NCBI GenBank assembly: GCA_030737835.1 | Contig: CM060856.1 | Location: forward strand, 19,589,941 to 19,653,940 | Direction of reading: 5' to 3' | Origin: Acorus gramineus | Lineage: Eukaryota; Streptophyta; Magnoliopsida; Acorales; Acoraceae | DNA: 64,000 bases | In this document: in pieces, positions 16,151 through 61,275 of the stretch | Position numbering within the stretch: position 1 is the stretch's first letter | How the letters are laid out: each line of letters begins with the position of its first letter | The notes under the pieces: model-generated | What the model was told of the DNA's origin: nothing | Seen by the model: the letters and a program-made list of their open reading frames with translations, nothing else | Database searches by the model: none | Translations under genes and position numbers: made by a program

Positions 16151-16158
16151 ATACATGT

Positions 16159-20357: not shown

Positions 20358-23300
20358 GATGACGAAGGGGAAGAGGACGGCCTCGATGATGAAGCGCCTC
20401 AGGTCTTCCTGAGAGCAGAGGGGGGCTGTCTCGGGGTCTAGCTCATCGGAGAGCAATGATTCGAAGAGGGCGGTCGTGCGAGAAATGGCCCAAACTTTGG
20501 AGACGCCCTTGGTGGGTGCCGGTGGAGGTGCGGATGCATCCTCGGGTGCTGCCATAGAGGTTGGGAGTAGTTTGATTGGTTATACACGCAAGAGGAGGCG
20601 TGGGGATCAACTGGTGGTGGCCGAAGAGGTGGTTTTGGAGGCCAGAGGGTTTGCCATAGGTGTAGGTGTCCTTGGATGCCATCGTAGGGATGTTAGAAAG
20701 AGAGGCCAAGGAGGCCAGGGCTGTGGAGGAGGAAAGGAGGTCCCTAGGGGACTATGAGGCTTTGGCCTCCGGTGCGGTGGGCGCGGAGGAAGGCGAGGGT
20801 GTAGGGACTAAGGCCGCGGAGGCCGAGCTTGAGGCTGCTGGGGCCGCAGAGGCCGAGGTTGGTGTGGAGGAGGTTGCAGAGGCCTTGGTTGAGGAGGAGG
20901 GGGACGACGAGGAGGGAGATGATGACGGGATGGACGATCTCGACGAAGCTGAGGCGGAGGTTCCCGGGGCTACACGAGCCATGGTATGCCTTAATTCCCT
21001 TAGCCTTGCTTTTTTTTATATATATATATGTCTTTGTAGTATGTACAATGCATGAATTGTGTAAGAGATGTATATGTGTTTTTAATAGGCATGTTTGTTT
21101 TGTGTATATAGAAAAAATAATCACGGTGGGATTCCATAAGTATGTATTATATTTTTGAGTGTAGAATGATGGGTTTAGAAAGGATTGGTTTTGCATGCGT
21201 GTTTTGTTTGTGGGAGTTTTTTTGTGATGGGCATGCTTTTTGATTTTTAGCATGAGGAGTTATGGTGGGGTTTATGTGTATATCATGAGTCTAAGAAGTA
21301 ATCATGATAGGTCCATATATGGTGCATATTTTTAAGAGGGGGACAATCTTTCATATGCTTTGATCATGGTGATTATGTTATAAAAGGGTTATGTGAGCAT
21401 GATAGATGATGGCATGAAAGGGCATGTAAGCATGATAAGGAGGACCACGGTGGGACAAGGGGTGTATCCATGCTTTGAATATTTCATGTTTGTATATGTG
21501 TATTTATTTCTCTAAGCATGGTCCTGATCTTGGAATTTTAAAAATAGAGATTCTCACCTCTGATTAACGCTTTCTCTTGTTTCTCTCAGTGACTGAATCG
21601 TGTGAGGGCTCTGTGGCACGGGACGAAGAGGTGGTATTCCGTCTTGGGTCGAGCGGAGAGGGACTTGGTGGACAGAGCAGGCTTCTGCTCCTTTTTTATC
21701 GAGTCCTTCCATGTCCACCGCCCATATCTAGAGGCGTTGGCGGAGCGGTGGGATCCGGAGAGCTGTGCCTTCATTCTCCCCACGGGTGCAGTGATGCCGA
21801 CGTTGGAGGATGTCCAGTGGATCACTGGTCTTCTGGCTTCAGGGGAGGCGGTGATCGCGGCTACCCGTGCCGACTACAGGGCTCTTTTTCAAGAGCTGAT
21901 TGGAGAGTGGGAGTTCGTGGAGTAGGAGAGGACGCTGAACCGGATTCCCCTAGGCCGGTTGTCGAGGAAGTATGGCCTTGGTTCCTTCACGCAGCGCCAG
22001 AAGGGTGTGGCTGAGACCAACTATGAGAGGAGGAGGTTGATGGTCGAGGCGAGAGAGGCAGCCGCGTGCCCACAGAGGGCACGGAGGGAGTTGAGAGAGT
22101 TCTTCCTCTACTTCTTCGGTCGGTTCCTCTTCTCGATAGCTTCGGACAAGGTCTCCTCTCACTTTCTGCTGCTGATGAGGGACCTGGAGACCATGGGACG
22201 CTTTGCTTGGGGAGCTGCGATGCTCGCCCACCTCTTCACAAAGCTCTCGAAGAAGGTGAAGAGGGTCGGGGGTAAGAACCTCGGAGGATTTGCGGCCTTC
22301 CTTCGGGTATAAGTTAGTGAAAAGGAAATATTTTTCTTTTGATTTGTTTCACTTGATTCTAATAATTTTTCTCCTATAGGTCTTCGGATATGAGCATTTT
22401 GCCATCAATCATCCCACTCCGGTGCCTTTTGACCGTGCTCTCCCTTGGGCCATGAGGTGGGCGCCTCCAGGGTCTTCTCGTTTGCGTTGCCTAGCGCAAT
22501 TCCGAAACGCTTTCCATGCTTTGAAGGAAGAAGAGGTATAATTTCTTGATTTGTTCACTCTTATAATATCTCCTTTGGTTTAAGCTTTCTTCTTATGTCT
22601 GTTATATTTTGTAGATGACTTGGAGGCCCTACACGGAGGAGGAGGTCCCGGCAGAGCGGTCGCGAGATGCCTGGCTGATCTTTTTTAATGAGGTCGTCTT
22701 CCATCCGATTAACCAGGTCGTCCGCCAGCTTGGGTACCACCAGTGGGTGCCCGATCCTCTACCGAAGTGTCCTCCGATCCCGGTGGCAGGAATTCCTCGA
22801 GATACAAACCTCCCACGGAATTACGCCGTGTATGTGAGGGGATGGGAGAGTAGGAGGACCCTGGTGGAGCGTCGTCCCAAGGTGACCAGCAGTGAGAAGT
22901 ACATGGCCTGGTATAGTCAGGAATACGTCAGCATCCTCAGGACTATGAAGGAGGAGATCCCGGACGCCTATGTAAGAAAATTCCTTTTTTTCTCTCTTTG
23001 CTTCTGCTCTTTGTGTTCTAAATGATGCTTTCTTTTGTAGGTTGAGTTAAATGAGTTGGAGAAGAAGCTCAAGGCTGCCAACGAGTATCTTCAGGCAAGG
23101 TCTGGGCAGGTAGAGGGGTTGCGGTCTTAGAGACGGTGCCTGCAAGACCAGGTTCAGGTCCTTGAGGATCAGGTCGATGCTCTGTCGAGAGCGAGAGCCG
23201 ACGGCGCTTCTTCCTCTTCCGCTCCTCCTCCATCCATGGCCTCTGATCGAGAGCTCGAATTGATGAATGAACTAGGCGTTGTTTGGAGTGAGCTCCTAGC

Positions 23301-24135
23301 CACTCGGATGGAGATCGATCAGGCGAGGGGGAGGGCTACGAGGGCTGAGGACAAGGTGGACCAGTTGAGGTCCGAGAGATCATCGAGGGAGGAGGCGTTG
23401 GACCAGCTGCGGTCTAGGATGGCGTTGAGAGAGGAGGAGACATCTATTTTACGCCATGAGCGAGACTCCCTCCAGGCCAGAGTTTCAGAGTTGGAGGCAT
23501 CGGTTGGCGTACCCGGTGGCTTAATGGGGGATTTGATCTGTTCCCTTCAGGCAGTCGGGGATAGAGATCGAGAGGGGTTCCTATTGAGTGAGGAGAGACT
23601 CCGGGTTGCAGAGATGAGGGCACGGGAGCTTGAGGAGAGGATTAGGACGATCGAGGATTGATCGAGAGGGGTGGAGGGTCGTCTTCGTCAGAGGTTGGAG
23701 AGGAGAGACCGAGATATGTAGCAAGTCCACCTCTGGGAGGCCACCATGAGGGGGAAGTTGGTTGGCAGAGGGTCCATGACGGAGGCGGATCTTGACCTCC
23801 TTCCTCTTGAGCCTGACCACTTGGTCTGTACCTCCCTAGCCACCAGAGCTACCTTTAGTCGAGCTTCTTGCCCATCAGCGACTCGGAGTCGTGGGATATA
23901 CACGAGGGCGGCTTCTTCAGTGAGGGAGACTCCCGTGGTCCAGGACGCTCTAGAGGTCTAGTCTTCTCACCAGCCACCACCGCCTTCTCAGCCAAGTCAG
24001 GATGTGCCTCCGACTCAGCCTCCCACGGATGATGATACACCAAGGTATAGTTGTAGTGTCTTGGGTTTTTGATAGAAGAATAGCATATATGCAAAGAATT
24101 TATGGTTTTTTTTCTTTTCTTTTGGCTCAGGTGAT
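20358..24135 (+). pseudogene. PMD-domain gene, antisense in Tat/Ogre-type copy 1
   Basis: Six exons with GT-AG borders: 20358-20983, 21590-22306, 22380-22535, 22615-22971, 23041-24044 and a last piece 24132-24135 with TGA. Exon 1 is acidic (Glu/Ala-rich) with a basic KRRR cluster. Exons 2-4 hold the plant mobile domain; visible marks are AERWDPESCAF, LPTGA and TLEDVQWITGL. Exon 5 is a long Glu/Arg/Leu coiled coil. It is broken by stops at about 20409, 21590, 21923, 23128, 23659, 23719 and 23959 and by a frameshift in exon 1 near 20640-20700. Several stops are TGA where copy 2 has CGA. Related PMD proteins (MAIL1/MAIN) act in plant genome maintenance and silencing; the role in a retroelement is unknown. 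The gene is on the strand opposite to pol. Confidence 0.85.
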
Positions 24136-26277
24136 TATTCTGATGATGCATGACCCAGGACATTTGGAGTTGGAGCTTTTGGGTGGACCTATCTCTTCTT
24201 TTCTTTTTTTTCATGAAGACTTTCTTTTGTGTAATTTTTATTTTTTAAGGACAATTTATGTTTATGTTCTTTATGGGATAATTTTCTGGCTTTTCATGCA
24301 TGGTTTTGTGTGATAAACATGGATGTTTAGTGTTTGAAAGGTTTTTTAATTTAGGTGGATGTGTATGTGTGTGAATGGATTTTGGTTTTGTAAGTTTGAT
24401 TCATGGATGAACATATGATTTTGAAATATAGTTGTTTTTGAAGCATACTTATACAGGTTTTATGAATGTATATGTGTATGAAATGCGTGTATGTAGGTTT
24501 TTGGAAAGAAAAACTCTTAATAGGTCTCAAAGGTTTGAAGAGATGATTGTCAATGGGACTTATAGTGTAAAGTGGGCAGCAGGTGAGGGGCGGCTAGTTG
24601 TTTTTAGCTGCCTAGTGAGGGGCGGCTAGTTGTGTTTAGCCACCGCAGGACTAGTAGAATTTACCTGTAGGGCGATGGCTAGTTGATTTCAGCCGTCTGG
24701 TGTCAGGCGGTTAGATACATTTAGCCGCCCCTTGCCTGGGTCATTTGTCTGATTCTGCTGTCTTGCTGCAACCGCTGAAAATCCTGTGGGTAGTGGGTCA
24801 TTCTTTAAGACCTGTAAAAACATTCTTTTTATGGACCAAGTGTTAAATCTGTCTGGATTGTGCCCCTGCACTGACTTTCGAGCCCCTCTTGCTTGAATTG
24901 TCAAGGGCTACAACCCATCTAAGGTAATTTAAAAGTAAAGCAAGGAAAAAGGTGCGAGAAGCCATGCCCGGCATACAAAGGAGGGAGCTTAAGTGACTCT
25001 AAGTGTGTGAATATGTGAGAATGGAAAAAAATCTCAGGTGTGTATGAGAGTGGGGCAATTTTCCTTTTCAAGTGTGTGTGGAAGGGTATGAAATGAAAGT
25101 AATAGGGGCAATTTTATTTTCGTGTGGGAGTCAATTTGTGGCATTTTGAGAAAATTGAATGCCTAAATGTTTTGGAAAAGAAAAATACAATCTTATGCAT
25201 AAGTGTGAGTGACATAAGGGAGCATTTTAATTCTTCAAAGGATCTTTCATGTGGGAGGGCAATGTTTTCAATTTCCTAAAGTAAAAGATACCATCAAGTC
25301 CTTGAAGAGGGGCCCTTGTGGTCACTTATGTCCAAACCAGGATTGTATTTGAAAGGTATTGACTTCAGGTGTCAATTTCTCAAGTTCATGGTTCTCAAAT
25401 GCTTGATCACATTATTCTAAACATGCTGGGAAATCCATGAATGCACCAGGAATTAAGTCAAATAAGCTTCTTTTAGACAGGCAAGTTTTTAAGTGAACTC
25501 ATGTGAGTGTGTGCTGTTGTAAACACAGGAAAAGGTCTTTGTTTGAAATTTCGCCTAGACATAGTTCAATTTCAACTGCACTGCAAATAAAAAATAAGAG
25601 TTGGGATGAATGGGATAAGAGTAATATCGCCCTTGGGGCATTATTTAGAATTGTCCCGGCCTCACATATGTCTTACTTTCTAGGTCCCTCCAGCTTTCTT
25701 CTTTTTACCACTTCTTTATTTGGGTAGAGAGTACAATCCATTTGCTTGGATGTGTACTAGTATAGCCTTTTGTTCAGCATATACTGTGCGTAAAGGCATT
25801 TGCGCCTGCTAAAATAGAGAGTTTAACCCGTTTGTCTGGGTGTTGTTTTGATTTTTGGTCTCTCATTGCCTTTTCTTCTTTCTTTTTGTGAGGGGGGGGG
25901 GGGCTTTCCTTTTTTTCACCTCTGTTCTTTTCTGCTTCCCCTCTAGAAGTGTTTATATAGTGCCAGAGCCAGTTTTGGGACATATGCCAGGTCCAGGACA
26001 ATCCCTCATTTTGTCTTTGGGGTTGATACGAATAAGAACGAGAATAAAGGGGAGATGCCTTGGGTTTAAAAAATTGTCCTAGTCTACAGGGTAGGCAATT
26101 TTTCCTTTTGTCAGATAAACCGATTCCTAAGTCATACTGGTGTGATGGAGGTGGCATGAGTGGTGAATATATGAGCTCAAGTAAAATACAAGTTATCTTT
26201 GAGAGTCTTATAATTCTATAATCAGGTGCTAAACACTGGAAATCGCAGGAAGGAAGAATAATATTTCTCAAACATTA
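24136..26277. other. Conserved non-coding segment between PMD gene and integrase (copy 1)
   Basis: It matches 54956-57201 in inverse orientation over most of its length but has no coherent reading frame. It lies where the sense (pol) and antisense (PMD) transcripts would converge. Hairpin units occur at 24585-24735. A ten-base G run lies near 25894. Confidence 0.65.
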
Positions 26278-26569
26278 AGAGTTTTATGCATGTAAAATCT
26301 TCAGATAATGTTCATTCACGAATCTGAGACTTCGACTCCTTTGGCATCCATCAAGCGGTAGGCATTCCTGAAGTAGGCATGGGTGATCACATAGGGTCCC
26401 TCCCATGTGGGTTGCAGCTTGCCTTTTGGATTGGGCTGTCTTGATGGCATGATTTGCTTAAGTACTAGCTCCCCAATTTTAAATTTTCTCTCTATTACTT
26501 TCTTTTCAAATGCCCTTGCCACCCTCCTCTAGTAGGCCTGGGCATGGTCTGCGGCCCTTAACCTCTTTT
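26278..26569 (-). pseudogene. Integrase C-terminal fragment of copy 1
   Basis: The - strand sequence carries RAFEKKVIERKFKIGE, then GKLQPTWEGPYVI and AYRLMDAKGVEV, the C-terminal part of gypsy integrase seen also at 54716-54955. A stop replaces a tryptophan near 26314 (TGA where copy 2 has TGG). The N-terminal side is lost at 26570. Confidence 0.85.
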
Positions 26570-26933
26570 CATTTTTTTTTTTAAGAAATCATTTAAACAA
26601 ATATGTATATGAGTTTGAAATGAAAGCTGATTAGCATATTTTTTTTGGATTTTTTAGGAAAGCATGGAAACAAACAGCCTAAAGAGGAAGCAAACAAATT
26701 TAGAAATAAACAGATTTAGTGATCTTAAGAATCTTAGAGACAGATTTTACAATCTCCAAAATCTTAAAAATATATTTTGCAATCTCTGAATATATTTCAT
26801 AATTTCTAAATATATTTCTCAATCTCTACATATATTTCCACCATGACTTCAACTTTGGGCCATAGAAACTACAATAGGGAGCCTTTTTTTACCTACAATA
26901 TAAGAAAATATTGGGGAGGCTTTTGAGGGTGCT

Positions 26934-27959: not shown

Positions 27960-29102
27960 TGTAGATATCACACTTTTGACCGTCCAAAGAAATGAAAATA
28001 CTTTAAGTAATATTTAGAAATGACCACATTTGGAATCTAAGAGAAAAAAATTTTTAGTAAAGAAACCGGAAGGAGAAACTCTAGCCCCCAACACTTAGAA
28101 AATTTTCAAGGGGTAGGAACAGAGCGGCTACTTCAAAGTAGCCATCCCCTAACCGCTTCCCATAGATGGGACATAAAGCAGCATTTAATGTTGATGATTG
28201 CGGCAGTTTCTTCTATCATGTTGCCCCTTCTCTGACGGCTTACACCTAGTAACCGCCTCAAGCCACCGCTTGTCGGAAATTGGACGTTTGGCAGGTCATC
28301 ATGGGGGCAGCATCTTGAAAGTAGCCGCCCCTCACTGGGCGGCTAGTGTAACTAGCCGCCCCTCACCTAGACAATTGTCAGAAACAAAGATCTAATGGTA
28401 GGTCAAATCAACCACCCAATTATCCAATTTAATTTATTGTCTAGTGGACACTCCCCTACCCTATTTTTTACTATAAATAAGGGGCACCCAAACTCTTCTT
28501 CTACTCATCAACCATCATCAATTATCCACATTTTCACACAACAAGCTCAATCAAGCATTCCTTTATCCCCACACCCACTATTTGAAACCCTTGAGAGAGA
28601 GAGAGAGAGTTCTATTTTGAGAGAAGGAAACTCATTTCCTACATAAATCTACTCTCCAAAAACCCTCTCTGAAACCCTAGTTAAACCTAGTTTAATTTCA
28701 GCCAAAGCCCAAAACCAAAATCTACCTAGGCTCTGCCCAAATAGAGCCAAATCCCAGGCGCTAATCACAACTAGCCATCCCCTTTTAGGTGGCTAATTTG
28801 CACTAGCCGTCCCTCATCCACCCCATGTCTTTTAAACCTCCCATTTTTCAAGTCCCAGAAGCAGAAAAGGATTCCCCGTTGGCATCTCTGTGTACGGTTG
28901 GCCATGTCTCATAGCGGAGAATCCACAATCCCCCCACGAAGGCAATCAACAGTAACACCATCTTTTTCTGCTTTTTGAGAAAGTAGGTGGCGATCACAAC
29001 AACCCTTGAATCCTCCTAAGGAGTTGTCGGGCATCTCAGCAAGGGACCACACCCCATCCCCCTTTTGAGAGACAATCCGATCATGCCTGCAAGGTGCATT
29101 CA
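27960..29102 (+). repeat. Tat/Ogre-type 5' LTR, copy 2
   Basis: It starts TGTAGATATCACACTTTTGA and ends GCATTCA. It has a TATA box (ctataaataa, 28471-28480) and hairpin units at 28121-28150 and 28337-28361 (perfect 11 bp arms GGGCGGCTAGT around GTA), and weaker ones near 28755-28815. A unit of about 30 bp present in the 3' LTR (62340-62375) is missing here. Confidence 0.85.
28471..28480 (+). promoter_or_regulatory. TATA box in Tat/Ogre-type LTR
   Basis: The core ctataaata is conserved in all three LTR copies (here, at 62700-62708 and, inverse, at 18962-18970), followed by a leader with gagagagag. Confidence 0.65.
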
Positions 29103-29374
29103 TACCAGAATTGTTATATATGTGTCACTTTTAGCCTGCTGGTAACCGTTAGAGCGTTCTGGCAGTTTTTCGTTTTTTTTCGATTTTTCGATCGGAACCG
29201 CTAATTTTTGGACTGTTAGCTATCGTCCTGAGCTAGAGGACTCCGATTGAAAATCTAACTGCATATTTGGTGTCCTGGTGCCATTTTAAGCCTCTCACGA
29301 AAATTTTGTCGAATTCCGGCAACGTTTCCAAAATTTCGCAGTTCCGTGGCGTATCCGGGTTTTTAAGTCGCACG

Positions 29375-29383
29375 CTATATAAG
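29375..29383 (+). promoter_or_regulatory. TATA box in 5' LTR of the long-LTR gypsy element
   Basis: CTATATAAG, followed by a CT-rich leader. The same site is at 35197-35205 in the 3' LTR. Confidence 0.7.
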
Positions 29384-29969
29384 AGTGGGATCTAATTTTC
29401 TGAGTTACTGTTCATCATCCCTACCAAATCCCTCTCTCTCCTCCCTCTCTCTTTTTCTTCCATTAGAGGCCCTTAGACCCCTCAAACCTAAAAACCTAAA
29501 GCACGAGAAGTGTAGATCGGGTCCCGATCTACACTCCGGTGTTTTCAAATCCCTTTTCCGACGAGTCTAGCCACTCCGACCTCCTCTCTTTCTCCTCTGT
29601 TTTGGCCCGGTTCGAAGGCCGTGGTAGATCGGGGCGTAAGAGGGCCTTTGGGAAGGGTTTCGGTGCACGGAGAGCGTCCGGACTTCCCTTCCTCCCCTTG
29701 GTAAGCCCTATTTCCCCTCTTTTCTTGTCTAGATGGATGTTAGGAGGTGGATTTTGGGGTTGGGTGGAGGTCGGCGGCTGTGGGTGGCCGTCGGAGGGCT
29801 GTGGAGGTGGTCGGAGGTCGGTGGAGGGTGGTTTGGGTGCTCGGGCAGCAGGGGGTTCTGTCTCGGGCAGCAGGCAGCACCGGCAGCAGCACAGCAGCGC
29901 AGCAGGCTGGGCGCGCGCGGGCGTGCGCGCGTGCGTGCGCGCGGGCGTGCGCGCGGGCATGCAGGGCGC

Positions 29970-30063
29970 GTGCTGGTCGTGCTGGGCGGCTGGTGCTGGG
30001 CGGGCTGGTGCGCGAGGTGCTGGTCGTGTTGGGCGGCTGGTGCTGGGCGGGCTGGTGCGCGAG
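29970..30063 (+). repeat. Two 47 bp tandem repeats in 5' LTR
   Basis: The unit begins gtgctggtcgtgctgggcgg and ends gcgcgag. The other LTR has four such units (35794-35989), one with an 8 bp insertion. Confidence 0.92.
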
Positions 30064-30413
30064 GAGCTGATCGCGCGGGTGCTAGGCGTGCGAGCAGGGG
30101 TGGTGCGTGCGCGAGGTGGTGGCCGAGTGCAGGGTGCGCGCGGAGGGCGCGGCGAGGCCGTGGGGGTGCGCGCGAGGCGAGGCACTGCGCGCGGGGGTGC
30201 GCGGGGTGCTCGCGGGCCGGCGCGAGGCGTGCGGGGTGCGTGGGCTGAGGCGCGGCGGTGCGCCCGGGCGGTCGGGTGGCCGTGCGGGTGGGTGCCGGCC
30301 GTGCGGGTGGTTGCCGGGGGTGTTGGGAGTTTAGTTGTGGGTTTATGTATGTTCTTGTGTATTTTGTGGTATTTATGGATTTTAACTCACCATATTGAAT
30401 GTCTGTCTTGCAG

Positions 30414-30449
30414 ATCTAGACGGACGGTCGCGCGACGACCCAGATACTG
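30414..30449 (+). other. Candidate mini-exon inside the 5' LTR
   Basis: 36 bp between CAG|ATCT and ACTG|GTGAGTGG. The same arrangement is seen at 36412-36447 in the other LTR, and with 39 and 37 bp in the solo LTRs (42631-42669, and 46009-46045 on the - strand). Splicing is inferred from the borders only. Confidence 0.4.
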
Positions 30450-32122: not shown

Positions 32123-32134
32123 TGGTATCAGAGC
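32123..32134 (+). promoter_or_regulatory. Primer binding site (initiator tRNA-Met type)
   Basis: TGGTATCAGAGC lies 5 bases after the end of the 5' LTR, the usual primer site of plant gypsy and copia elements. Confidence 0.9.
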
Positions 32135-32236
32135 CTGGTCCTGTCAGAGCCAATTGTCTTCCTTTCGTAGAGATGAGTCCTAGGATTTCTATATGAGTAT
32201 TCTGATCCTAGTGTCTGGTTTTCTTAGGGTGCTGAT

Positions 32237-34742: not shown

Positions 34743-34918
34743 GATCATGGACCGCCGCGTGAGGAGGCTCTGCACCAAGACCGTCCAGTTGGTCGAGGTG
34801 CGATGGCAGCACCGTTCCGGTGTTGAGGACACTTAGGAGCTCAAGGATGCCAGGTGTGACGCGTATTCACATCTTTTCCCCTCCTAGATGTTTTTGCATA
34901 TTTTGAGGACAAAATTTC

Positions 34919-34933
34919 CTAAGGGGGGAAGAA
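34919..34933 (+). promoter_or_regulatory. Polypurine tract
   Basis: ctaaggggggaagaa directly before the 3' LTR, the primer for plus-strand synthesis. Confidence 0.85.
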
Positions 34934-47700: not shown

Positions 47701-50014
47701 AATTTTTATAGGTAGTACAAAACGGTACCAGGACCCATATTATGTAGTTAGATTTTCAATCAGAGCACTCCAACTCCCACAGGTAGCTAAAAACCAAAAT
47801 TTTAGCGACTCCGATCGAAAAAAAATAAGGCTTCAATTGACATAGGCACAACAAGTCAACCAGAGAAACCAGACCGGGCGGCTGCTTGGCCTCCTAGAGG
47901 AGAGGATGGCCACCCTAGGATACCAGTCGGTGGAGGACATATTCAATGACTTAGCCGACTTTCGCCAAGCCAAGACCTTGAAACAGGAAACCGCTGTCAG
48001 GACCCCCAAGGCTTACCTCACCCCTAATACCCCACCAACACCCAGTTTCTCTGTCAATCCGAGTCCATTTTCTGCCCCCTCATTTTCATTTAGTCCGCCT
48101 TCACCCGCGAATCCAATATTCCCGACACCTTCTGCCCCAGACCCCTACCAGGCCACGTGTAGCCCAGGACCACTGAACTACCCACCCCAGGCAAAAACGT
48201 TGGATGAAACCATCTGGAGAATCATCTACGAGATTAGCCCTTCTGCCCAAACACATGTCCCTAAACAATTTACGCCAAATCCCGTCGGTCAGTCTTTTGG
48301 AGGGATTCAAAGTTCTAAAATTTCGTTGGTATAATAGCCGTGGATACCCGGATGTTCATCTGACCGCATTCTACTTAGATTCTCGGCCCTTCCTAGACAA
48401 TCAGCCCCTTCCAGTTTTCCTATTCCAGAAGTCCCTAGAAGGAGAGGCACTGCAGTGGTTCTCCACACTCCCCATAGACCACCTCTTTAATTTCTCGGCT
48501 GTAAGCGAGAAGTTTTTAGGTCGCTACGGTTACCAACGAGTTAGAACCCCCTCCATCTCAGACCTCACAGTCGAAAGGATGAGACCCCGAGAGGAGTTCG
48601 AGCAATACATATCCCGGTGGCGCACCCTGGTCCACAAGACCGATCTGCAGTTAACAAAATGTCATGAGATTGACATAATGTTACAAAACCTCAATTCGGA
48701 GCTCCATACGAGTCTTTCGTATGGAGGCTCCATGACCTACCAGCTCTTGATATACCGCCACAACAGGATAACTCGTTGTGCAGTCCCACCCACGTCCCCA
48801 CCTATCAACCATAGGGTTGGACAATTGCCGCGAAAGGCTCAAACCCCCACGGTAGAGGGGATCACACTGCAAGTTTCGGCACTCTACCCGAACGGAGTGT
48901 GAGTCCCTGATCAAGGACCAGCTCTGAGACAGTATACACCCGGTTTGTCCGAATATGTGAAGCTTTGGCAAGCTACTTATAATTTCACTCCTCGACCAGT
49001 ACCCGCCCCTGTGCCGACACGACAAAACCACATAATCCAAAATCCCCCAGTCTAAAACCATAACCAAAACCAAGGCCAGACCAGAACTACCCCTGCCTAC
49101 TCAGCTCCCCCAAGGGCACAAAATTTAACTCCCACCAGCCCACACCAAGCCCTTACAACGAGGTCTCCCCTCCGTCATCCTATTGCCCGAGATGGTTAAG
49201 AAAGAGAGACTGCTATCCACCACTCCCGAAAACCCTAGCAAACATCTTAAAAACCTTTATAAGAACCAATAGTATCTCTTTACCTACGGCCAGACCATCA
49301 CCACCCAGTGCCAACAATGCCCGCTACTGCCCGTTCCATCAACATCATGGTCACACCATCAAACAATGTTTTCCATTCAGAGACATTGTTTATGACCTCG
49401 ATGAAGAAAGATGCCTGGATTGGGCAACCATTAGGGGGCTCAGGAGTAGCTCACCCTCAAAACCACAAGGAACACAGTTAGGCCCATTATCCAAACAAGG
49501 CCAGGCCCCAATGCGCCTAAACCCTACAACAAATACCAGAGCACAAGGCCCAAAACCTACCATACAGGCCTTGATAGAAGAACCAGAAAGCCTAATCTTC
49601 GGAAGCATCTACGTGGTAGGGGCTACAAACCACGAAGAACTACGTAGGATCATTCCAGGTGGTTTAATTCTTCTAGCACCTTCCCCTATGCACCCAAACC
49701 CTATAAGGCCCCTCCCCTCTCATATGGGGCTAGCACCAAAGCTTGGCCCCATCCTACCCATAAACCGAAACCTAAACCCACCAAAGAACCAGTTTTCTCA
49801 AACCACAGTTGACACTCTAAACCATCACACAACTCGAGCCGGAAGAATCTTTAACGATGTTCTTACCTATAGACGTCCCATGCCTGAAATGGAAACCGAA
49901 GAGGCCAATATTGGAGATAGAATCGACATCCTCGACTAACTCTGAAGAATCCCTGCAAAAATTTCCATCTTGGAGCTAATTGAAACCTCATAACATCACC
50001 AGCAGGAACTAAGG

Positions 50015-51121
50015 ATGGTTTTGGAGAGAGTCCAAGTTGACCCTCAAATCTCCACCCTAAATATGCCCGTGGCCTTAGCCTCTGCAAGTTTGGGACCCAT
50101 GATAACGTTTAGGCCCAAAGAAGAAATCCGTGACAAAATAATTAACACCTCAACCTTATGCATCACGGTTGACATCAAAGGGCATTCAGTAGATAAAATA
50201 CTAATCGATATTGGTGCAGGGGTCAACTTCATGTCACTACGCACTTTCGAACAGATTGGTGGGCATATCACCACACTCCTAGAAACGGATACTCGGATAT
50301 TCACCTATGACAAAACAACCCACCCAATTCTTGGTTTCAACGATTTCCAATTAAAAATAGGTTCCTTAGAAACAATCGTTGAAGCATACGTTTTAGAAAT
50401 GGACTCTGACTATAACATGATCTTAGGGCGAAAATGGCTAGCCTCAATCAAAGGGGTCTCTTCTCCGCTCCACCAGTGCTTAAAATTTTCCTCAAGAAAT
50501 CAGATAATCAAGATACGAGGAGACGCGATCAAAGAGCCCAAACCAGGGCTCACTAATGATGAGGCTATTGCCATAAAAACCATAAACTCAAAACCAAAAG
50601 AACCCACCATCCACATTTTAGACTTCCCACCCAATTGGATAGACCTTCAAGGGACACCTACCAACACAACAAGGACAAGTCACCCTAGACATAGGAACCG
50701 AGGTTGGCACATGATGGAATTCATGGGCCATATCCCGGGAAAAGCACTAGGACTAAGAAGAGATGGGATCTTAGAACCCATTAAACTACCAGTCTGGCCA
50801 GATAAGAAGGGTGTTGGCTCATTCACCCAACACCGCCATAAAAACTTAAAAACAAAATATAACTGGGAGTTATTTGAACACTTTGTAAAAGGAGCAAATG
50901 TGAAACAAACAGAAGAAAGCATACACACTCCTAGCCATCCATCAACCCCTGTCCAAGAAAGGGAGCTAGACTATCTCTCAGGCTCGCTGGACTGGTTATT
51001 CTCACACTCAAATAATTCCCCAAAATCACACACACCATCAATCAATAGAACTCCAAATAACAAAACACTCCCTCCTCGCAGTGCGCAAGCATGGCAACAA
51101 AGGAGCACCAACTGTTGGTGA
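50015..51121 (+). pseudogene. Protease region of Tat/Ogre-type copy 2
   Basis: An open stretch of 368 residues. A retropepsin fold is suggested by ITVDIKGHSVDKILIDIGAG, MSLRTFEQIG and the downstream MILGRKWLA. The active-site triplet reads D-I-G rather than D-T/S-G, so activity is doubtful. The C-terminal part contains a glycine-patch-like region (WHMMEFMGHIPGKALGLRRDG) before pol. This frame is not continuous with RT. Confidence 0.8.
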
Positions 51122-51606: not shown

Positions 51607-53142
51607 ATGGAAGAACTGAATCTTGGGACTAATGCTAGTCCTAAAGTAGTTTTAATCAGTACAGAGTTGAAACCAGAAGAAAAGGAAGGTCTGGTTAAAA
51701 TATTGCGCGAGTATATTGACGTTTTCGCTTGGTCTTATGAAGACATGCCCGGGCTCGATACTTCATTGGTCGAGCATAGATTAATTTTAGAGCCTAATGC
51801 AAAGTCAGTAGAACAAAAACTAAGACGCCTCCATCCAGAGGCGGCCTTGAAAATCGAAGATGAGGTGGACAAACTCTACCAGGCTAAATTTATTCGGGTA
51901 GTCTTATACTTAAAATGGGTAGCTAATATTGTTCCAGTATCCAAGAAAGACGGCAAAATCCTAGTATGCATCGACTTCAGAGACCTTAACCGGGCATGTC
52001 CAAAGGATGACTTTCCGCTACCACACATCGACCTCCTCGTCAATAATACAGCTGGATATGAAATGCTCTCCTTTATGGACTATTTTTCTGGGTACAATCA
52101 AATTCGGCTAGCAGAAGAAGGCCAAGAGAAGACCTCTTTCATCACACCGTGGGGAACTTACTGTTATGTAGTGATGCCTTTCAGGCTTAAAAAGGCTGGT
52201 GCAACATATCAGAAGGCAATGACCTCTGTATTTCATGATATGATGCATAAGTTAGTAGAGGTGTATGTGGATGATATCCTAGTTAAATCTAAAACTCGGA
52301 TAGGACATGAAAAAGTACTTCGACTAGTTCTGCATCTATGTAGGGAATTTACATTTAAAATGAACCCGAAGAAATGCCGCTTTGGTGTCTCTTCAGGGAA
52401 ACCCTTAGGATTCATCTTAAGTAAAAGGGGAATTGAGATTGACCCAACTAAAGCCAGAGCCATTACCCAAATGCCCCTACCCAAAAACTTGAAGGAGTTA
52501 AGAGGACTCATCGGTCGTCTGCAATTCATTAGGCGCTTTATCTCACAGCAGGCCGAACAGTGTCACCCTTTTTACAAACGATTAAAAGAAGGGGTTAAGT
52601 TTACCTGGGCTAGTAAATGCCAACAAGCCTTCGATAATCTAAAGAAATACCTACTTAATCCCCCAGTTCTCTCAGCTCCAGTACCCGGACGACCCTTACT
52701 TCTTTACGTAGCAGCAACTGAGGAAGCCATTGGCGTCGTACTCGCACAACACGATGATATGGGAAGGAAAGAAAAGGCTGTTTACTATCTAAGTAAGACA
52801 CTAATTGAATACGAACGGGCTTATCCCCCCACATAGAAAACCTGCCTGGCGTTGCTATGGACTTCCCAAAAATTACGTCATTATTTCCTCGCTCACAAAG
52901 TCAAGTACTTTACAAAATTGGACCCACTAAGGTTGCTATTCGAGAAAGTTGTGCTGACCGGCCGCTTGGCCCAATGGCAAGTCTAGTTAAATGAATTTGA
53001 CATCACCTTTGTCACTCAGAAGTCTATCAAAGGCCAAGCCATTGCTGATCATCTCGCTCAACTCCCCCTCCCCGATTATGAACTAGTAAAGACCGACTTC
53101 CCTGACGAAGAAATATTCGCGTTCATTGAAGAAAAAGATAGG
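51607..53142 (+). pseudogene. Reverse transcriptase and RNase H of Tat/Ogre-type copy 2
   Basis: The open part 51607-52836 (409 residues) is a near-complete gypsy RT. It shows NIVPVSKKDGKI, DFRDLNRACPKDDFPLPHID, FMDYFSGYNQI, TPWGTYCYVVMPF and the catalytic YVDD at 52264-52275. Then comes KELRGLIGRLQFI. RNase H follows (LLYVAATEEAIGVVLAQ, YYLSKTL) with stops at 52834 and 52987, and ends in the linker that follows IADHLAQLPLP. The residues known to hold metal (the two Asp of YVDD, and a third Asp in FMDYF) are all present. It copies element RNA into DNA; as broken here it cannot yield a complete pol. Confidence 0.92.
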
Positions 53143-53819
53143 AAGACATAGACGTTGTACTTCGACGGAGCAGTCAATCAACAAGGGAGAGGGATAGGAA
53201 TAGCGTTAATTTCCCCCGAAGACGTCATCATCCCATTAGCATTTCAACTCACATTCAACGCCACCAACAACATTGCCGAATAGGAAGCTCTGATAGCATG
53301 TCTAAAGGCAACTTTTGCTTTAGGGGTTAAATATCTGGATATTATTGGTGACTCACTTTTAGTAATTCGCCAGACCTTGAGAAAATGCCAGACTAGAGAC
53401 CCAAAATTAAAGCCATATAGAGAACTGGCCATTGTCCTATTAAAACAATTTCGCAAAGTCACCCACATCTTTATACCCCGAACAGGCAATATTCTCGCAG
53501 ACTCCCTAGCCTCTTTAGCCTCATCACTTACACTTCCCATATCCAAGAAATTTGAAACAGTCACTATCCAAAGACTAGAAGAACCGGCCACCGAATTTCG
53601 ATATTGTAAAACCCAAGACCTCCTAAACCAACAAGATCAAAAAGAAGGAATCACCAATACCAAGGAAATCCTAGCCCTTGATCTAGAAGAAATGGACGAT
53701 GGGAATCCATGGTATTTCGATATAAAAAACTATCTCGAAGACGGTTCATTTCTGGGATATGCTACCAACAACGATCAAAGGATAGTCAAAAGAATAGCAG
53801 CCAAATACTGTCTCCGATG
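53143..53819 (+). pseudogene. Archaeal-type RNase H (aRNH) of Tat/Ogre-type copy 2
   Basis: A second RNase H, distinct from that next to RT. It starts TLYFDGAVNQQGRGIGIAL (catalytic Asp in YFDGA), then EALIACLKATFALGVKYL, IIGDSLLVIRQ (catalytic Asp in GDS) and ADSLASLAS. Two TAG stops (53149 and 53281) break the domain; the first stands where a tryptophan is usual. A second RNase H is known in Tat-lineage elements, which supports the assignment. Confidence 0.85.
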
Positions 53820-54955
53820 AGGATACTCTTTCGATCACCTTTAACAAAGAAGTACTCAGATGCTTGGACGACGAAGAAGCATACACTATGGTGGAGGAAG
53901 CTCACTTCGGGGTATGCAAAGGTCACGTCAATGCGCAAATGTTGGTGAAAAAAGTACTGAGGATGGGCTACTATTGGCCCACAGTCGAGGGAGACTACAA
54001 CAAATACGTTCGACGTTGTATTAAGTGTCAAACACATGCCAACAAAATACACACACCGGCATCTTCTTTACACCCTATGACATCCCCATGGCCATTTTAC
54101 ATGTGGACACTAGATGTAGTCAGATTGTTCCAAGACACGGTAGAAAACACTACCCAAAAAGCCTTCATTCTCACTGCCACCGAATACTTCACCAAATGGG
54201 CTGAAGCCGAGTCATATGTGGTAATTAAAATCTCCACCCTTGCCCGCTTCGTTTGCACCCATATCCTAGCATGGTTCGGTACTCCCAAAATGATCATAAT
54301 AGACAACGGCCCACAATTCATTTCCAAAGAGTTCTGAAACATCACATAAAACTCCACCATTCCACACCGTATTACCCTCAAGGAAATGTACAAGCAGAGA
54401 CCACCAACAAAACCTTACTTAGATCATCAAAAAGAAAGTAGAAACACACAAAGCTACTCACTGACTGACAAGTTAGTTGATGCCCTCTGGATTTACCGAA
54501 CCTCTATCCGCACACCCACAGGCCAGACCCCATACTCACTCACATTCGGGGTGGAAGTAGTAGTACCCTACGAAATTCTTATCCCATCCTTAAGGGTTGT
54601 TCTGGATGAAGACCTACAGATCGAAGAAGGAAGAGAAGCGCTTCTACTACGCCTTTAACTATTAGATGAGAAAAGGTTAAGAGCTGTAGAACATGCCCAT
54701 GCCTACCAAAGGAGGGTGGAAAGGGCATTTGAAAAGAAAGTAATTGAGAGAAAATTTAAAATTGGAGAGATGGTACTCAAGCAAATCATGTCATCAAAGC
54801 AGTCCCATCCAAAAGGCAAGCTACAACCCACATGGGAGGGACCCTATGTGATCACTCATGCCTACTCCGGAAATGCCTACCGCTTGGTGGATACCAAAGG
54901 AGTCGAAATCTCAGGTTCATGGAATGCACTTTATCTAAAGAAATTCCATGCATAA
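53820..54955 (+). pseudogene. Integrase of Tat/Ogre-type copy 2
   Basis: The zinc-binding N-terminal part has AHFGVCKGH and RRCIKCQ. In the catalytic core, Asp lies in FYMWTLDVV and IIIDNGPQFISKEF, and Glu in QAETTNK (54397-54410, in a shifted frame), so D,D,E is recognisable. The C-terminal part has YRTSIRTPTGQTPYSL and, at 54716-54955, RAFEKKVIERKF, GKLQPTWEGPYVI and a final KKFHA with TAA. Frameshifts near 54337 and 54400-54430 and a stop at 54656 break it. Confidence 0.88.
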
Positions 54956-57201
54956 AACTCTCAATACTTGAGAAATCTTATTCTTTCTTCATGTGAATTC
55001 CAGCATTTAGTGCTTGATGATAGGATTATAAGACTCTTAAAGATGACTAGTAATTTATTTGAACACATATTCACCAATCATGCCACCTCCATCACACCAG
55101 TATGACTTAGGGATTGGTTTACTTGATAAAAGGAAAAATTACCTACCCTGTAGATTGGGACAATTTTAAAACCTCAAAGCATCTCCCCTTTATTCTCGCT
55201 CTTATTCATATCAACCCCAAAGTCAATGAGAAATTACCCTGGACCTGGCATATGTCCCAAAACTGGCTCTGGCATCGTACAAACACTTCTAAAAGGGAAG
55301 TAGAAAATAACAGGGGTGAAAAACAGAAAACCCCCATGAAAAAAAAGGCAATGAGAGGCCAAAATAGTAAAATAACACCCAAACAAACGGGTTATACTCT
55401 CTATCAACGGCGCAATCGCCTACAAACAGTATATGCTTAACAAAAGACTATATTATCCACCTAAAACACGAATACACGCCCAGTGGGGTGTACTCTCCAC
55501 CCAAATAAAGAAGTGGTAAAAAGAAGAAAGCCAGATGGACCTAGAAATTAGGATATATGCCAGACTAGATTAATTCTAAAAATTCCCCAAGGAAGATATT
55601 ACCCTCACCCCTTGACCTCCTCTTTTATTTTTTCTGCAATGAGGATAGAATTGAACTATGTCTACTTGGAAGGCGAAATTTCAACCAAAGGTAGACCTCT
55701 CCCTATGTTTACAATAGCACACACCCTCACAAGAGTTCATTTAAAGTCTTGCTTATCTACACAGAAGCTTATTTGACTCAATTTTTGGTACATTCATGGA
55801 TTTCCCAGCATGTTTAGAATAATATGATCAAGCATTTGAGAGCCATGAACTTGAGAAATTGCCACCTTAAGCCAAAACCTTTCAAATGTAATCCTGGGTT
55901 GGACATAGGTGACCACAAGGGCCCCTCTTCAGGGACTTGATGGTATCTTTTACTTCAAAAGAAGATTGGAAACATTGCCCTCTCACTTGGAAAGTTGATT
56001 GAAGAATTAAAATGCTCCCTTATGCCACTCACACTTATGCATAAGCTTGTATTTTTCTTTTCCAAACACTTAGGCATTCAATTTTCTTAAAATATCACAA
56101 TTAGCTCCCCATACCAAAAGAAAATTGCCCCTATTACTCTTTTTTCATACCCTTCCACACATACTTGAGAAGGAAAATTGCCCCACTCTCACACACACCT
56201 AAAAAGTTTTTCCCACTCTCACATACTCTCACACTTAGAGTCACCTAGACTCCCTCCTTTTTTGCCGAGCACGGTTTCTCACACCTCTTCTCCTCGCTTT
56301 ACTTTCAATCACCTTAGTTGGGTTGTAGCCCTTGACAATTCGAGCAAGAGGGGCTCGAAAGTCAGTGCAGGGGCACAATCTGAACAAATTTGACACTTGG
56401 TTCATGGAAAGAATGTTTTTGCAGGTTTTAAAGGTTGATCAGGCACTCATGGGACTTTCAACAGTAGCAGCAAGCCAGTGGAATCAAAAGTCTGCCCTAG
56501 GCAAGGGGTGGCTAACCTACACTAACCTCCTAGACCCTGGTGGCTCATCTAGACTAGCAAGCTAGATTTAAAGAGCAAAACAAGCCAGTCCCAGGGCGGC
56601 TACCTCAAACATGCCGCCTTAGCCCTGACGGCTAAATTCCACAAGTCGGTGCCCTACAGGTGATTTTTACCTATCCAGGGGCCGCTAAAAAGAACTAGCC
56701 GCATGCCCCTGGGCGGCTAGCCTAGAGTAGCCGCCCCTCGCCTGCTACCCCAGATTGCACTGTCAATTCAGTTTAATCAACTCTTCAAACCTTCGAAAAC
56801 ATATTAGGAATATTTCTTTCCAAAACCTGTGCACACACATCCCATACACATACACACTCTCAAAACCTGTATAAAAACAAATCAAAACTAGCCAAAAACC
56901 AAAATCATATGCCAACCCACACATTCATACACCAAGCCTTTGCATATTCATTCATCTACTCACATGCTAAATCCATATACACACCCACCAATTAACAAAG
57001 CTTCAAATCAATAAAACAACTAAAAATATCCATGTCCACCTATATAAACCATCCATAAACTGAAGGAAGGTATAAATCGTTCATAAACAAAAAAACAAAC
57101 CTAAATCAAAATAAAAGAGAGTCTTTCAAAAGAAACCAACAAAAGAAAGACAAGGGTCTGCCAAGGAAGCTTTAATATGAAACTCTGCATCGTCGAAATA
57201 A
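54956..57201. other. Conserved non-coding segment between integrase and PMD gene (copy 2)
   Basis: It corresponds to 24136-26277 inverse. No coherent frame. Hairpin units include 56711-56736 (GGGCGGCTA arms around GCCTAGAG) and degenerate ones at 56590-56700. Sense and antisense transcripts would end here. Confidence 0.65.
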
Positions 57202-60200
57202 TCACCTAAGCCAAAAGAAGAAGAAAAAAAAAAGCATGAATTTCTTGCATACACATCATTCTGCTACCCAAAACCAAGACACAAGATTACCTTGGAGTAT
57301 TGCCATCATCTGTGGGAGGCTGGGTCGAAGGAGAAACATCCTGGCCTGGCTGAGAAGGTGGTGTTGGCTGAGGAGAAGACTGAACTTCTGGAACATCCGG
57401 AGCAGTAGGAGTCTCTCAAACCGAAGACACAGCCCTCGTATACCTCCCACGACTCTGAGTCACCGAAGGGCGAGAAGCTCTACTAAAAGTAGCCCTAGTT
57501 GCTAGAGAGGTAGAAATGGAGTACTCTTGCTCGATAGGAAGGAGGTCAAGATCTACCGCGGTCATGGCCCCTCCACCAACCAACTTTCCTCTCATAGTGG
57601 CCTCCCAGAGGTGGACTGGCTGGATATCTCGGTCCCTCCTCTCCAACCTCTGACGGACACAACTCTCTACTCCTCTAGATCGATCCTCCATCGCTCTTAA
57701 CCTCTCCTCAAGCTCCCGTGACCTCACCTCTATGGCCCGGAGCCTTTCCTCACCCATTCAGAGCGCTTCTCGGTCTCTATCTCCAACCGCCTGAAGGGAG
57801 CGGATCAGATCTCCCATTAAACAGCCAGGAACACCCGCCGAAGTCTCTAACTCTGAAACCCTCACCTGGAGGGAATCTTGCTCACGGCGTAAAGTGTCGA
57901 ACTCCTCCTCCCTAGACAATCTCTCAGACCTCAACTGATCCATCTCCTCGTCGGCCTTGATGGCCCTCTCTCTAGCATGGTCGAGCTATATCTGTGTGGC
58001 CAGGAGCTCACTCTGAACCATGCCCAATTCACTCATCAACTCGAGCTCTCGCTCAGAAACAATGGTCGGAGGAGGAGTAGAAGAAGAAGATGAGGCACCA
58101 TTAGCTCTCGCTCTCGACAGAGCATCCACCTAAACCCCGAGAACCCGCACCCGATCCTGCAACTGGCGCCTCTGAGAGCGCAAGCACTCTACCTGATCAA
58201 TCCTTGCCTAGAGATGCTTGTTAGCAACCTTGGGCTTCTTCTTCAACTCATTCAGCTCAACCTACACAAAGAAGACTTCTCTTAAATACATAAAGAGAAG
58301 AAGAGAGAGAGAAAAGAAAGAAAAAGAGAGAGAGAGAGAGAGAGAGAAAGGCTTTTTCTTACATAGGCATCTAGAATCTCCTCCTCCATAGTCCTGAGGA
58401 TGCTCACATACTCTTGGCAGTACTAGGCCATGTATTCCTTGTTGCTTGTCACCTCAGAGCGGCGTTCAACTAAAGTCCCTCTTTGGTCCCATCCCCTTAC
58501 ATATACTGCGTAGTTCCTCATGAGGTTCGTACCCTGAGGAATGCCAGCTACTGGGATCGGAGGACGCTTCATTAGAGAGTCGGGCACCCACTGATGGTGT
58601 CCAAGCTAGCGGACGACCCGACTGATCGAGTGAAAGACGACCTCGTTGAAGAAGATCAACCAGACATCCCTAGACAGCTCCTCAAGGACCGCCTCCTCCA
58701 TATAAGGACTCCAAGTCATCTACAAAATAGGATATCAAAGAGATAAGAAGAGAGCTTAGTCTGAAATTTGATAAAAGCAGAAGATCCAGAAATTATACCT
58801 CTTCTTCCTTCAAAATACGGAAGGCCTCTCAGAATTGCGCAAGACGACGCAGACGAGAAGACCCCGGAGGTGCCCACCTCATGGCACAAGGCAGAGTACG
58901 GTCGAAAGGCACCAGAGTCGGGCGGTCGATGGCAAAGTGCTCATACCCGAAGATCTGCAGGAAGAATACTATCAGAATTAAGTGAAACAAATCCAAAGAA
59001 AGATGTTCGTTTTCACCAACTTATACCTGGAGAAAAGCAGCGAAACCGCCAAGATTCTTGCCCCCGACCCTCTTCACCTTTTTCGACAACTCAACAAAGA
59101 GGTGAGCAAGCATGACCGCACCCTAGGTGAAACGGCCCATGGTCCCCAGGTCCCTCATCAACAGAAGGAAGTGTGATGAGACCTTGTCTGAGGCGGTCGA
59201 GAAGAGCACCCGCCCAAAGAAATAGAGGGAGAATGCTCGTAGCTCCCTCTGTGCACTCTATGGGCACGCAGCTATCTCTCTCGTCTCAATCATCTGGCGC
59301 CTCTACTCATAGCTAGTCGTGGCTTCACCCTTCTAGCGCCGCGTGAACGAACTGAGGCCGTATCACCTTGACAACTGATCAAGTGGGATCCGGTTCAGAG
59401 TCCTCTCTCGCTCAATGAACTCCCACTCTCATATCAACTCTCGGAATAGCGCCCTGAAGTCAAGACTGGTCACCGCAATCACCACCTCTCCCACAACTGG
59501 AAGACCGGTCATTCTCTAGACATCCTCCAAGGTCGGCATCACCGCACCGTTAGGAAGGATGAAGGTGCAGCTCTCTAGATCTCATCTCTCCACCAACGCC
59601 TCAAGATAAGGACGGTGGACATAGAATAACTCGATCAAAATGAAAGAGTGGAAGCCCGCTCAGTCCACCAGGTCCGTCTCCTCCTGCCTTAAGGCGTTAT
59701 ACCACCTCTTTGTCCCGTGCCACAAAGCGCGCACGCGATTCATTCGCTAAAAAGAACAGAGAAAGAGGTCAGTTCAACAAAGACAATCAAGAGGTAAGAA
59801 TCCTTTAAAATTCATTTAAAACCATGCTTAGTTGAAACATAAAAAATTAAACATCAAAGCATAAAAATAATAATAACAATAATAATAATAAATAAAAATA
59901 AATTCACCTCTTTTTACCCTAAACCAAAATAACTATCTTATCCCACCGTGGTCTACCTCTTTAAACAAACACTTAAACTAATCATAAAATCCCGTCGTAA
60001 GGAAATGCATGTAGAATTGTCCTTCTGCTAACTCATAAGCTATGCTCATATGTATGCAATCTCGCCATGATAACACATGCAGAAATCCTCTCAAACTTGT
60101 ATTAAATCCCGCCGTAATAACATATGCACTCATTCAAAATCCCATCATGATAATTCTAAAGTTATCATACTTGCATGCTTATTGAACTCACTCAAGACAC

Positions 60201-61275
60201 TTTCTTTTTTTATCATGTATACATATTCATTTCCTTTCCTATAAAGCATGCTTATAACTCCCACCATGATTAAATACATATAAAAGCATGCAAACCCCAC
60301 CATAACAAAATAAATAATAGAAATAATAACTATGCTAGTTCAAAACCCACCAAGTTTTATATTATGCTTATTTATCATACAACTTATAGAAACAAAAATA
60401 TATTACTTTTATTATCCTACTCACGAAAGTTATTTCCACACTTATCTCCTTATAAAAATTCCCACCGTGATTATCTATTCCACCATTACTATGTGTAAAC
60501 CAAACAATCTACTTTTACTCATGCCATAAAAATTCAAGCATACACATAAAAAGACATGTGAAATATAAAAATACATATTTAAGAAGTAGAAGAATACCAT
60601 GGCTCGTGTGGCTCCAGGGGCCTCCGCCTTTGCCTTGGCCTCATCAAGATCGTCCATCCCGTCGCCTTCTTCTTCCCCCTCGTCCTCAACTTTAGCCTCT
60701 GTAGCCCTAACATCCTCAACTTTGGCCTCTGTGGCCTCGACCTCAACCTCGGCCTCCGCGGACCTGACATCAGCACCCATGGCCTCTTCGGCCCCAACTC
60801 TAACACCCTCACCTTCCTCCGTGCCCACCGCACCGGAGGCCAACACCTCATAGTCACCCATAACACTTCTCTCCTCCTCCTCATCCCTAGCCTCTGTGGC
60901 CTCCCTATCCAACATCCCCACAGTGACATCTAAGGATGGCCTCAACTCCTCACTAACCTCCTCCACCCCTACTTCTCCACCCTCACCTTCGGCCGACCCT
61001 CCGACCTCCAAACCCGCACCATCGGCCACCACCGGTTGATCCTCACGCCTCCTTTTACGCGTATACCCAATCATATCTCTCAGAATAGCCCCCAAAGATG
61101 CACCTCCAACCTCACTCGCACCCATCGGTGTCTCCACCGTTTGGGTCGTTTCTTCCACAACCCCCCTCTCCATCCCATCACTCTCTGATGAGCCCGACCC
61201 CGAGACAACCCCCCTCTGCCCTCGGGAAGACTGGAGATGCTTCATCATCGAAGTTGTCTTCTTTCCCTTCTTCAT
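57202..61275 (-). pseudogene. PMD-domain gene, antisense in Tat/Ogre-type copy 2
   Basis: Six exons on the - strand: 61275-60598, 59746-59027, 58954-58799, 58719-58363, 58261-57291 and 57205-57202. They sum to 2886 bases, a multiple of three (961 residues plus stop). Exon 1 is open, acidic, with YTRKRRR. It also stays open upstream to 61308. Exon 2 carries the plant mobile domain but has many stops, mostly TGA or TAG where copy 1 has arginine, tryptophan or glutamine codons. Exon 5 is a coiled coil with a final Arg/Ser region. Exons 3 and 4 have the same lengths as in copy 1 (156 and 357 bp). It lies head-on to pol and starts near the 3' LTR. The product, if made in an active relative, might act on chromatin or silencing, as the cellular PMD family does; this is inference. 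Confidence 0.85.

Follow-up and report, generated by a model that had tools for sequence, protein, structure and literature searches.

What would a long terminal repeat (LTR) retrotransposon do with a spliced gene that it carries in the direction opposite to its own pol? The question is raised by a 64,000-nucleotide stretch of Acorus gramineus contig CM060856.1 (hereafter the window), which contains two copies of one Tat-type Ty3/gypsy family in opposite directions, copy 1 on the minus strand and copy 2 on the plus strand. In both copies, a spliced gene for a plant mobile domain (PMD) protein lies between the integrase and the 3′ LTR, antisense to pol and with matching exon borders. We modestly favour the reading that the element encodes in this protein a DNA-binding factor of its own, which would counteract silencing or activate, and that arrays of short half-sites found in the element are its binding sites. 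Selection on the gene, conservation of the half-sites and the predicted fold of a related protein agree with this reading, which is also the most economical one.

A spliced gene antisense to pol

All five introns have GT–AG borders in copy 1 and copy 2 alike, and the PMD (PF10536), encoded by exons 2–4, scores 142 bits (E 3.2e-41) in copy 1 and 113 bits (E 1.7e-32) in copy 2, the curated cut-off being 34.9 bits. These results bear out a preliminary description of the window, which had proposed one antisense PMD gene in two copies of a Tat element and whose gene ends agree with ours to within one base. Five of the six exons that it listed are firm; the sixth is weak, because it adds only the last base of an arginine codon and the stop codon, and an unspliced read-through in copy 2 ends identically. 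The place between integrase and 3′ LTR is indeed the same in both copies, but copy 1 is not a whole element: besides the 3′ LTR and the antisense gene, truncation has left it only the C-terminus of the integrase, with similarity to pol ending at 26572.

The second part of exon 1 is acidic, as had been claimed (42 D/E versus 12 K/R among 126 residues in copy 2), and exon 1 of both copies encodes a basic cluster, TRKRRR. A proposed coiled coil of about 300 residues fared less well: the structure model of a relative from Acorus calamus, P0001, predicts helices of 74–82 residues in the tail, but the matches of exon 5 to coiled-coil families are weak and all under cut-off, and a crude periodicity test on the tail detects a helix period without singling out a coiled coil. 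For the PMD itself, the P0001 model was rejected as too poor (pTM, the predicted template modelling score, 0.33). Both window copies of the gene are broken: across exons 2–5, copy 1 has 6 stops and copy 2 has 17, and exon 1 of copy 1 carries one stop and one frame change. For 15 of the 23 stops in exons 2–5, the other copy has a sense codon that differs by a single transition.

Upstream of the gene, the TATA-like site that had been described (TTATAACC) is conserved in both copies, and TTATAA occurs 100–230 bp from the gene start in 8 of the 12 loci with at least 230 bp of upstream sequence; the gene may be driven by a promoter of its own. A bacterial promoter scan is uninformative for plant DNA. 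Within intron 1, the motif TCACGGTGGGA recurs in the orientation of the gene (20984–21589, plus strand; 59747–60597, minus strand): with up to three mismatches allowed, it is present three times in copy 1 (shuffle maximum 4) and nine times in copy 2 (shuffle maximum 3), the shuffle mean being about 0.5, and an exact copy also lies at 38197.

Maintenance of the gene and its place among known PMDs

Over 730 codons of exons 2–5, copy 1 and copy 2 differ at 121, 101 and 271 first, second and third codon positions, respectively. Their pairwise ratio of nonsynonymous to synonymous change (dN/dS) is 0.17 (bootstrap 0.13–0.21) at a dS of 0.82, and all five gaps in the nucleotide alignments of these exons are multiples of three. 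The preliminary description had made the persistence of the gene in other copies a check on its claim. A search of the 398.6 Mb genome with the A. calamus protein P0018 as query, in which 109 of 1614 candidates were scored, returned at least 195 exon-level matches, and other copies do retain the gene with open exons: exon 2 is stop-free in 15 of the 30 best of 195 matches (L001–L030), and among loci with both edges placeable, exact GT–AG borders were found in 5/7 for intron 1, 24/29 for intron 2, 21/23 for intron 3 and 20/24 for intron 4. Because these are the 30 best matches, the numbers of open exons and of intact splice sites probably lie on the high side. Across 496 pairs that include the window copies, dN/dS of exon 2 goes from 0.31 at dS under 0.2 (6 pairs) to 0.10 at dS over 0.9 (140 pairs), which is what a gene that is under selection between transpositions and decays once inserted would show at the level of sequence. 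Passenger debris is ruled out, because dN/dS is low and the splice sites persist; judged by these comparisons, the antisense PMD gene is maintained. Its orientation recurs as well. Among seven loci read at about 10 kb (L031–L034 and L045–L047), the gene of the first four is opposite to the LTR in 4/4 and opposite to the integrase in both loci where an integrase was found.

L001 and L003 share a variant without intron 3 that keeps introns 2 and 4; we rejected these loci as processed, intron-free copies proving splicing, since only intron 3 is missing. Predicted A. calamus gene models, which are predictions rather than RNA and were compared by eye, read across introns 1–3 (P0018), 2–4 (P0001) and 3–4 (P0019). 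In two further models, P0002 and P0016, pieces of the gene are fused to topoisomerase-like and choline monooxygenase sequences, probably through annotation running across insertions.

The nearest protein to the window gene comes from A. calamus (71% identity over 80% of the query); a second protein search returned four proteins, and in IMG/VR no relatives were confirmed by search. In a tree of 33 PMDs, the window copies, P0018 and 14 Araceae PMDs are separated from 12 MAIL/PP7-named and 4 unlabelled PMDs with a support of 100/100, and a second tree of 26 rows gives the same split (100/100). Both trees are unrooted, with references picked by name, and take in 31 and 13 of 137 database proteins; the larger one drew a long-branch warning, and one Colocasia row was dropped for length from the smaller. 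The placement in a PMD tree, which had also been suggested as a check, thus groups the gene with multicopy Araceae PMDs: Colocasia alone has dozens of such proteins, several with the acidic start, a GASSS linker and the tail in common.

That the class is not wholly new had been foreseen, and the kind of gene is already known, because Ikeda 2017 (PMC5418596) describes PMD-A1 and PMD-A2 as exclusively gypsy-encoded clades and Neumann 2019 (PMC6317226) reports a PMD in 57% of Ogre elements. Like these, the window gene encodes a PMD in a Tat-type Ty3/gypsy element that is distinct from genic PMDs: as in gypsy-encoded PMD-A, its PF10536 match lies above the cut-off, it stands apart from the genic PMD-C group (MAIN/MAIL) in the unrooted trees with name-chosen references, and it is a PMD-type extra open reading frame (ORF) as in the Ogre lineage. 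Beyond those reports, the gene described here has at least five exons, is under purifying selection in its many copies, and combines a predicted VANC-like fold with arrays in the element; neither intron nor antisense appears as a word in the main text of Ikeda 2017. A gene running antisense in the region from pol to the 3′ LTR is a feature shared with the TRP28 genes of Retand and the antisense gene of Grande (Vicient 2025, PMC11963269, and its reference 13), the latter being reported, in a passage and a reference title of Vicient 2025, to encode a nuclear protein and to have its own promoter. Unlike the window gene, the Retand antisense genes encode TRP28 (PF04195), and the word intron is absent from the main text of Vicient 2025.

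Half-site arrays, a VANC-like predicted fold and a second family

In the element, the 8-base word GGCGGCTA alternates with its own reverse complement, the two being offset by 16 bases. If up to two mismatches are tolerated, the window contains 46 such pairs, all 46 within element parts and two of them (in exon 1) outside clusters; with one mismatch allowed there are 29, compared to 0 in each of 20 shuffles. A blind scan for exact inverted pairs recovered this motif (motif 1) 22 times, the null maximum being 2. Exact pairs with an 8-base spacer number 1606 over the genome as a whole versus 0 for a reversed control, and all spacers of 9–20 together give 15 (control 1). Clusters are found in the LTR, which has three, immediately upstream of the TATA-like site of the antisense gene, and downstream of the gene. 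Upstream of the gene, six flagged half-sites were found in 5/5 loci with 300 bp of sequence, and at least two in 9/12 loci with 230 bp. Between copy 1 and copy 2, identity is 147/168 in half-sites, 138/215 in spacers and 1141/1580 in the rest; with copy 2 as reference, the same comparison gives 125/144, 118/184 and 1183/1635.

The structure model of P0018 matches the fold of the DNA-binding domain of VANC21. VANC21 and other VANC proteins, which bind motifs of their own elements and take away DNA methylation there, belong to VANDAL transposons, which are Mutator-like (MULE) DNA transposons, whereas the carrier of the PMD gene is an LTR retrotransposon with the gene in antisense; the motif is GGCGGCTA here and YAGTATTAY for VANC21, and the arrays alternate here, whereas those of VANC have a single orientation. 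DUF1985 was detected in 9 of 63 PMD relatives at E≤0.01, the three rows viewed all falling below Pfam's cut-off. Sequence searches of PDB gave no direct link from PMD to VANC21, and nothing at E≤0.001 came out of a search of viral structures.

On these grounds, we propose that the PMD gene serves a Tat (Ogre-like) LTR retrotransposon as an accessory gene. Its antisense orientation would leave the introns in the genomic RNA, and it would be transcribed from its own promoter. Its product would combine the acidic N-terminus and the basic cluster with a PMD whose DNA-binding fold is VANC-like and with a long helical tail, possibly for pairing; it would enter the nucleus and bind the phased GGCGGCTA half-site arrays in the LTR promoter and in both flanks of its own gene. 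Once bound, it would act against silencing or turn on transcription, in the way that VANC acts for VANDAL transposons. A broader proposal, to which we give a little less than an even chance, is that the PMD is a VANC-type sequence-specific DNA-binding domain, that Tat elements carry a complete self-recognition anti-silencing system (an antisense spliced trans-factor with co-evolving cis arrays in LTR and gene flanks), and that MAIN and MAIL1 are domesticated or related versions of such a DNA-binding anti-silencing protein from transposons. If true, sequence-specific anti-silencing would reach from MULE DNA transposons to LTR retrotransposons, and a DNA-binding fold common to host silencing and transposon anti-silencing proteins would be suggested. 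The function of the PMD has been described as unknown (PMC8616336); a fold shared with VANC21 would make it a matter for a direct test, namely whether the domain binds DNA and which motif.

A second PMD-bearing family (L045–L047) allows the arrays to be compared between relatives. The gene sits in the same antisense place, exons 2–5 are recognisable and the exon-2 match is stop-free in 3/3; exon 2 is 56–57% identical to that of copy 1, and the integrase is 77–79% identical to that of copy 2 over its main part. Motif-1 pairs number 0 in L045–L047, compared to 3–9 in the window family (family 1). Instead, the second family has a 28-base repeat in the presumed LTR (L045, L046), recognised by a start that, like that of family 1, reads TGTAGATACCCC, and a 27-base repeat downstream of the gene; 37/47 and 33/46 of the GTCGA/TCGAC sites in L045 and L046 fall within these two arrays. 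Loose pairs of a second motif occur 16, 11 and 5 times in L045, L046 and L047 versus 0–2 in family 1; this motif was drawn from L045–L047, and therefore its presence there is not independent, whereas the absence of motif 1 is. We describe the arrays of family 2 as GTCGA/TCGAC-rich tandem repeats, because the blind scan supports motif 1 strongly and the second motif not. The two families have different arrays, and the difference, seen in these two families only, resembles the turnover of motifs among VANC targets. Sixteen match rows, counted by eye, have the same span and a 241-codon open frame, L045 and L046 being among them and L047 separate; L045–L047 were assigned to the family by reading and the remaining rows by match pattern only. 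With about 94–97% identity to one another over long stretches, L045–L047 form a homogeneous family that, from its sequence, was probably recently active.

Binding of the arrays by host factors is the main rival to a factor encoded by the element. In this case the arrays would be GCC-boxes through which AP2/ERF proteins drive the LTR and the antisense promoter, while the PMD protein does something else. TAGCCGCC contains AGCCGCC, which we take to be the plant GCC-box, so host factors could bind there; the 24.7 kb of element parts contain this word 24 times, where 1.3 would be expected, and the remainder of the window contains it 10 times. There are sites in the LTR and also directly upstream of the TATA-like site of the antisense gene. 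However, ERF factors bind single GCC-boxes and would not need opposite half-sites at a fixed 16-bp offset, and the sister family with its diverged PMD has different arrays; we consider this rival unlikely. The preliminary description had suggested interference with, or imitation of, host silencing factors, and a PMD protein acting as mimic or decoy of the MAIN/MAIL1–PP7L complex would work by protein contact and need no target arrays. MAIN and MAIL1 carry PMDs, are needed for silencing and act in it with PP7L, and anti-silencing by PMDs encoded in transposable elements has been proposed (PMC5418596, PMC7156037, PMC8616336). Nevertheless, the element PMD is well apart from the MAIL/PP7-named PMDs (100/100), and mimicry accounts neither for the conservation of phased arrays in the LTRs and beside the gene nor for the different arrays of the sister family, which makes it rather improbable; we have replaced it with the VANC-like predicted fold and arrays that look like the element's own target sites. 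It seems more improbable still that no protein binds the arrays and that they are purely structural, tandem or hairpin repeats such as Tat 3′ regions commonly contain. Tandem repeats are frequent between pol and the 3′ LTR in Retand elements (PMC11963269), but here the half-site cores are conserved and the spacers are not, the arrays sit in LTRs too, and hairpins were rejected because the inner bases that would pair do not co-vary.

Several observations weigh against the PMD protein as a DNA-binding factor with its own sites, the lack of co-variation at the inner bases of the pairs being one of them. The fold match rests on one model, that of P0018 and not of the broken window copies, at a Foldseek E of 0.09, and sequence searches of PDB did not find VANC21. 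DUF1985, which VANC has, was not detected in the window copies (0/2 at E≤10), P0018 matches it only at E 0.12, and among the 63 relatives DUF7745 matches more proteins than DUF1985 does (26/63). As for the arrays, the fixed spacing of half-sites may in part reflect inheritance, and alignments may be drawn towards matching cores; in L004, L010 and L017, which are 3 of the 12 loci with 230 bp of upstream sequence, the stretch read does not contain two phased half-sites, and among L031–L034 only L032 has phased sites at the LTR, upstream and downstream of the gene, the others having them at some of these places. The comparison of arrays covers two families only. In family 2, the LTR is presumed from its start sequence alone; repeats were not seen directly upstream of the gene; the LTR array was not found in the stretch of L047 that was read, whose 23 GTCGA/TCGAC sites in all lie inside the simulated range, with no overall excess; and the blind inverted-pair scan reached a top count of 3 (null 1–2), with no strong exact pair.

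The two copies and their surroundings

Copy 2 extends from 27960 to about 63180, and its LTR pair differs by a Kimura two-parameter distance of 0.107 over 993 columns. In their DNA, copy 1 and copy 2 are about 73% identical over LTR and gene and 82% beside the integrase. Membership in the Tat clade follows from the RVT_3 match between the RT_RNaseH end and the integrase ORF of copy 2, as an additional RNase H in this place marks the Ogre and Retand groups of that clade (Neumann 2019, PMC6317226). No clear classical Ogre primer site was found: a scan for a tRNA-Arg primer site gave four loose matches, which is chance level, none of them at an LTR end, and the 5′ LTR is interrupted by a nested element.

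Table 1. Features of the two element copies; positions count from the first nucleotide of the window
Feature	Position	Strand	Details
Copy 1 antisense PMD gene	20359..24134	+	Exons 20359-20983, 21590-22306, 22380-22535, 22615-22971, 23041-24044, 24131-24134
Copy 2 antisense PMD gene	57202..61275	-	Exons 61275-60598, 59746-59027, 58954-58799, 58719-58363, 58261-57291, 57205-57202
TATA-like TTATAACC, copy 1 antisense gene	20178..20185	+	Conserved in both copies
TATA-like TTATAACC, copy 2 antisense gene	61472..61479	-	Conserved in both copies
Upstream array, copy 1	20076..20162		Six GGCGGCTA/TAGCCGCC half-sites in phase, preceding the TATA-like site of the antisense gene
Upstream array, copy 2	61495..61582		Six half-sites, up to two mismatches
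Downstream array, copy 1	24589..24729		Half-sites downstream of the gene
Downstream array, copy 2	56507..56735		Half-sites downstream of the gene
Copy 1 3′ LTR	18350..19508 (outer end approximate)	-	Array clusters 18670-18709, 19081-19136, 19296-19351; LTR TATA 18962 (-)
Copy 1 integrase C-terminus remnant	26150..26572 (inner end approximate)	-	Sequence similarity, profiles
Copy 2 5′ LTR	27960..29106	+	Split by nested LTR element
Copy 2 gag ORF	48204..48902	+	PF03732, E 1.2e-6
Copy 2 protease ORF with G-patch domain	50015..51121	+	Profile matches
Copy 2 reverse transcriptase (RT)-RNase H ORF	51607..52836	+	RVT_1, E 1.2e-24
Copy 2 RNase H end and additional RNase H	52837..53865	+	RVT_3, E 5.4e-15; stops in frame
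Copy 2 integrase (H2C2, rve), weak Tf2-like SH3 C-terminus	53864..54950 (end approximate)	+	Profile matches
Copy 2 3′ LTR	62156..63180	+	Cut at presumed CACTA-type end; arrays 62318-62373, 62533-62588, 62984-63039; LTR TATA 62700 (+)

In the protease ORF of copy 2, the G-patch domain (E 1.9e-6) comes after the protease, an arrangement that calls to mind the protease–G-patch fusions of betaretroviruses. The 5′ LTR of copy 2 is interrupted by a nested LTR element (29112–38117) with a gag ORF and LTRs of its own that are about 92% identical, flanked by the target duplication AGAAT (29107–29111 and 38118–38122). At the other end, CACTACAAGAAAA, which we take to be the end of a CACTA-type transposon, runs from 63181 onward, abutting and truncating the 3′ LTR. 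Copy 1 has on both flanks a repeat of 83% identity (17784–17970 and 26667–26873) that by eye resembles copia pieces. Further out lie pieces of a cytochrome P450 gene (13483–15144, minus strand; PF00067, E 2.7e-58 and 1.3e-15) and, at 16156–16409, a tandem run of three near-identical units, each about 85 bases long and containing CTATAAATA.

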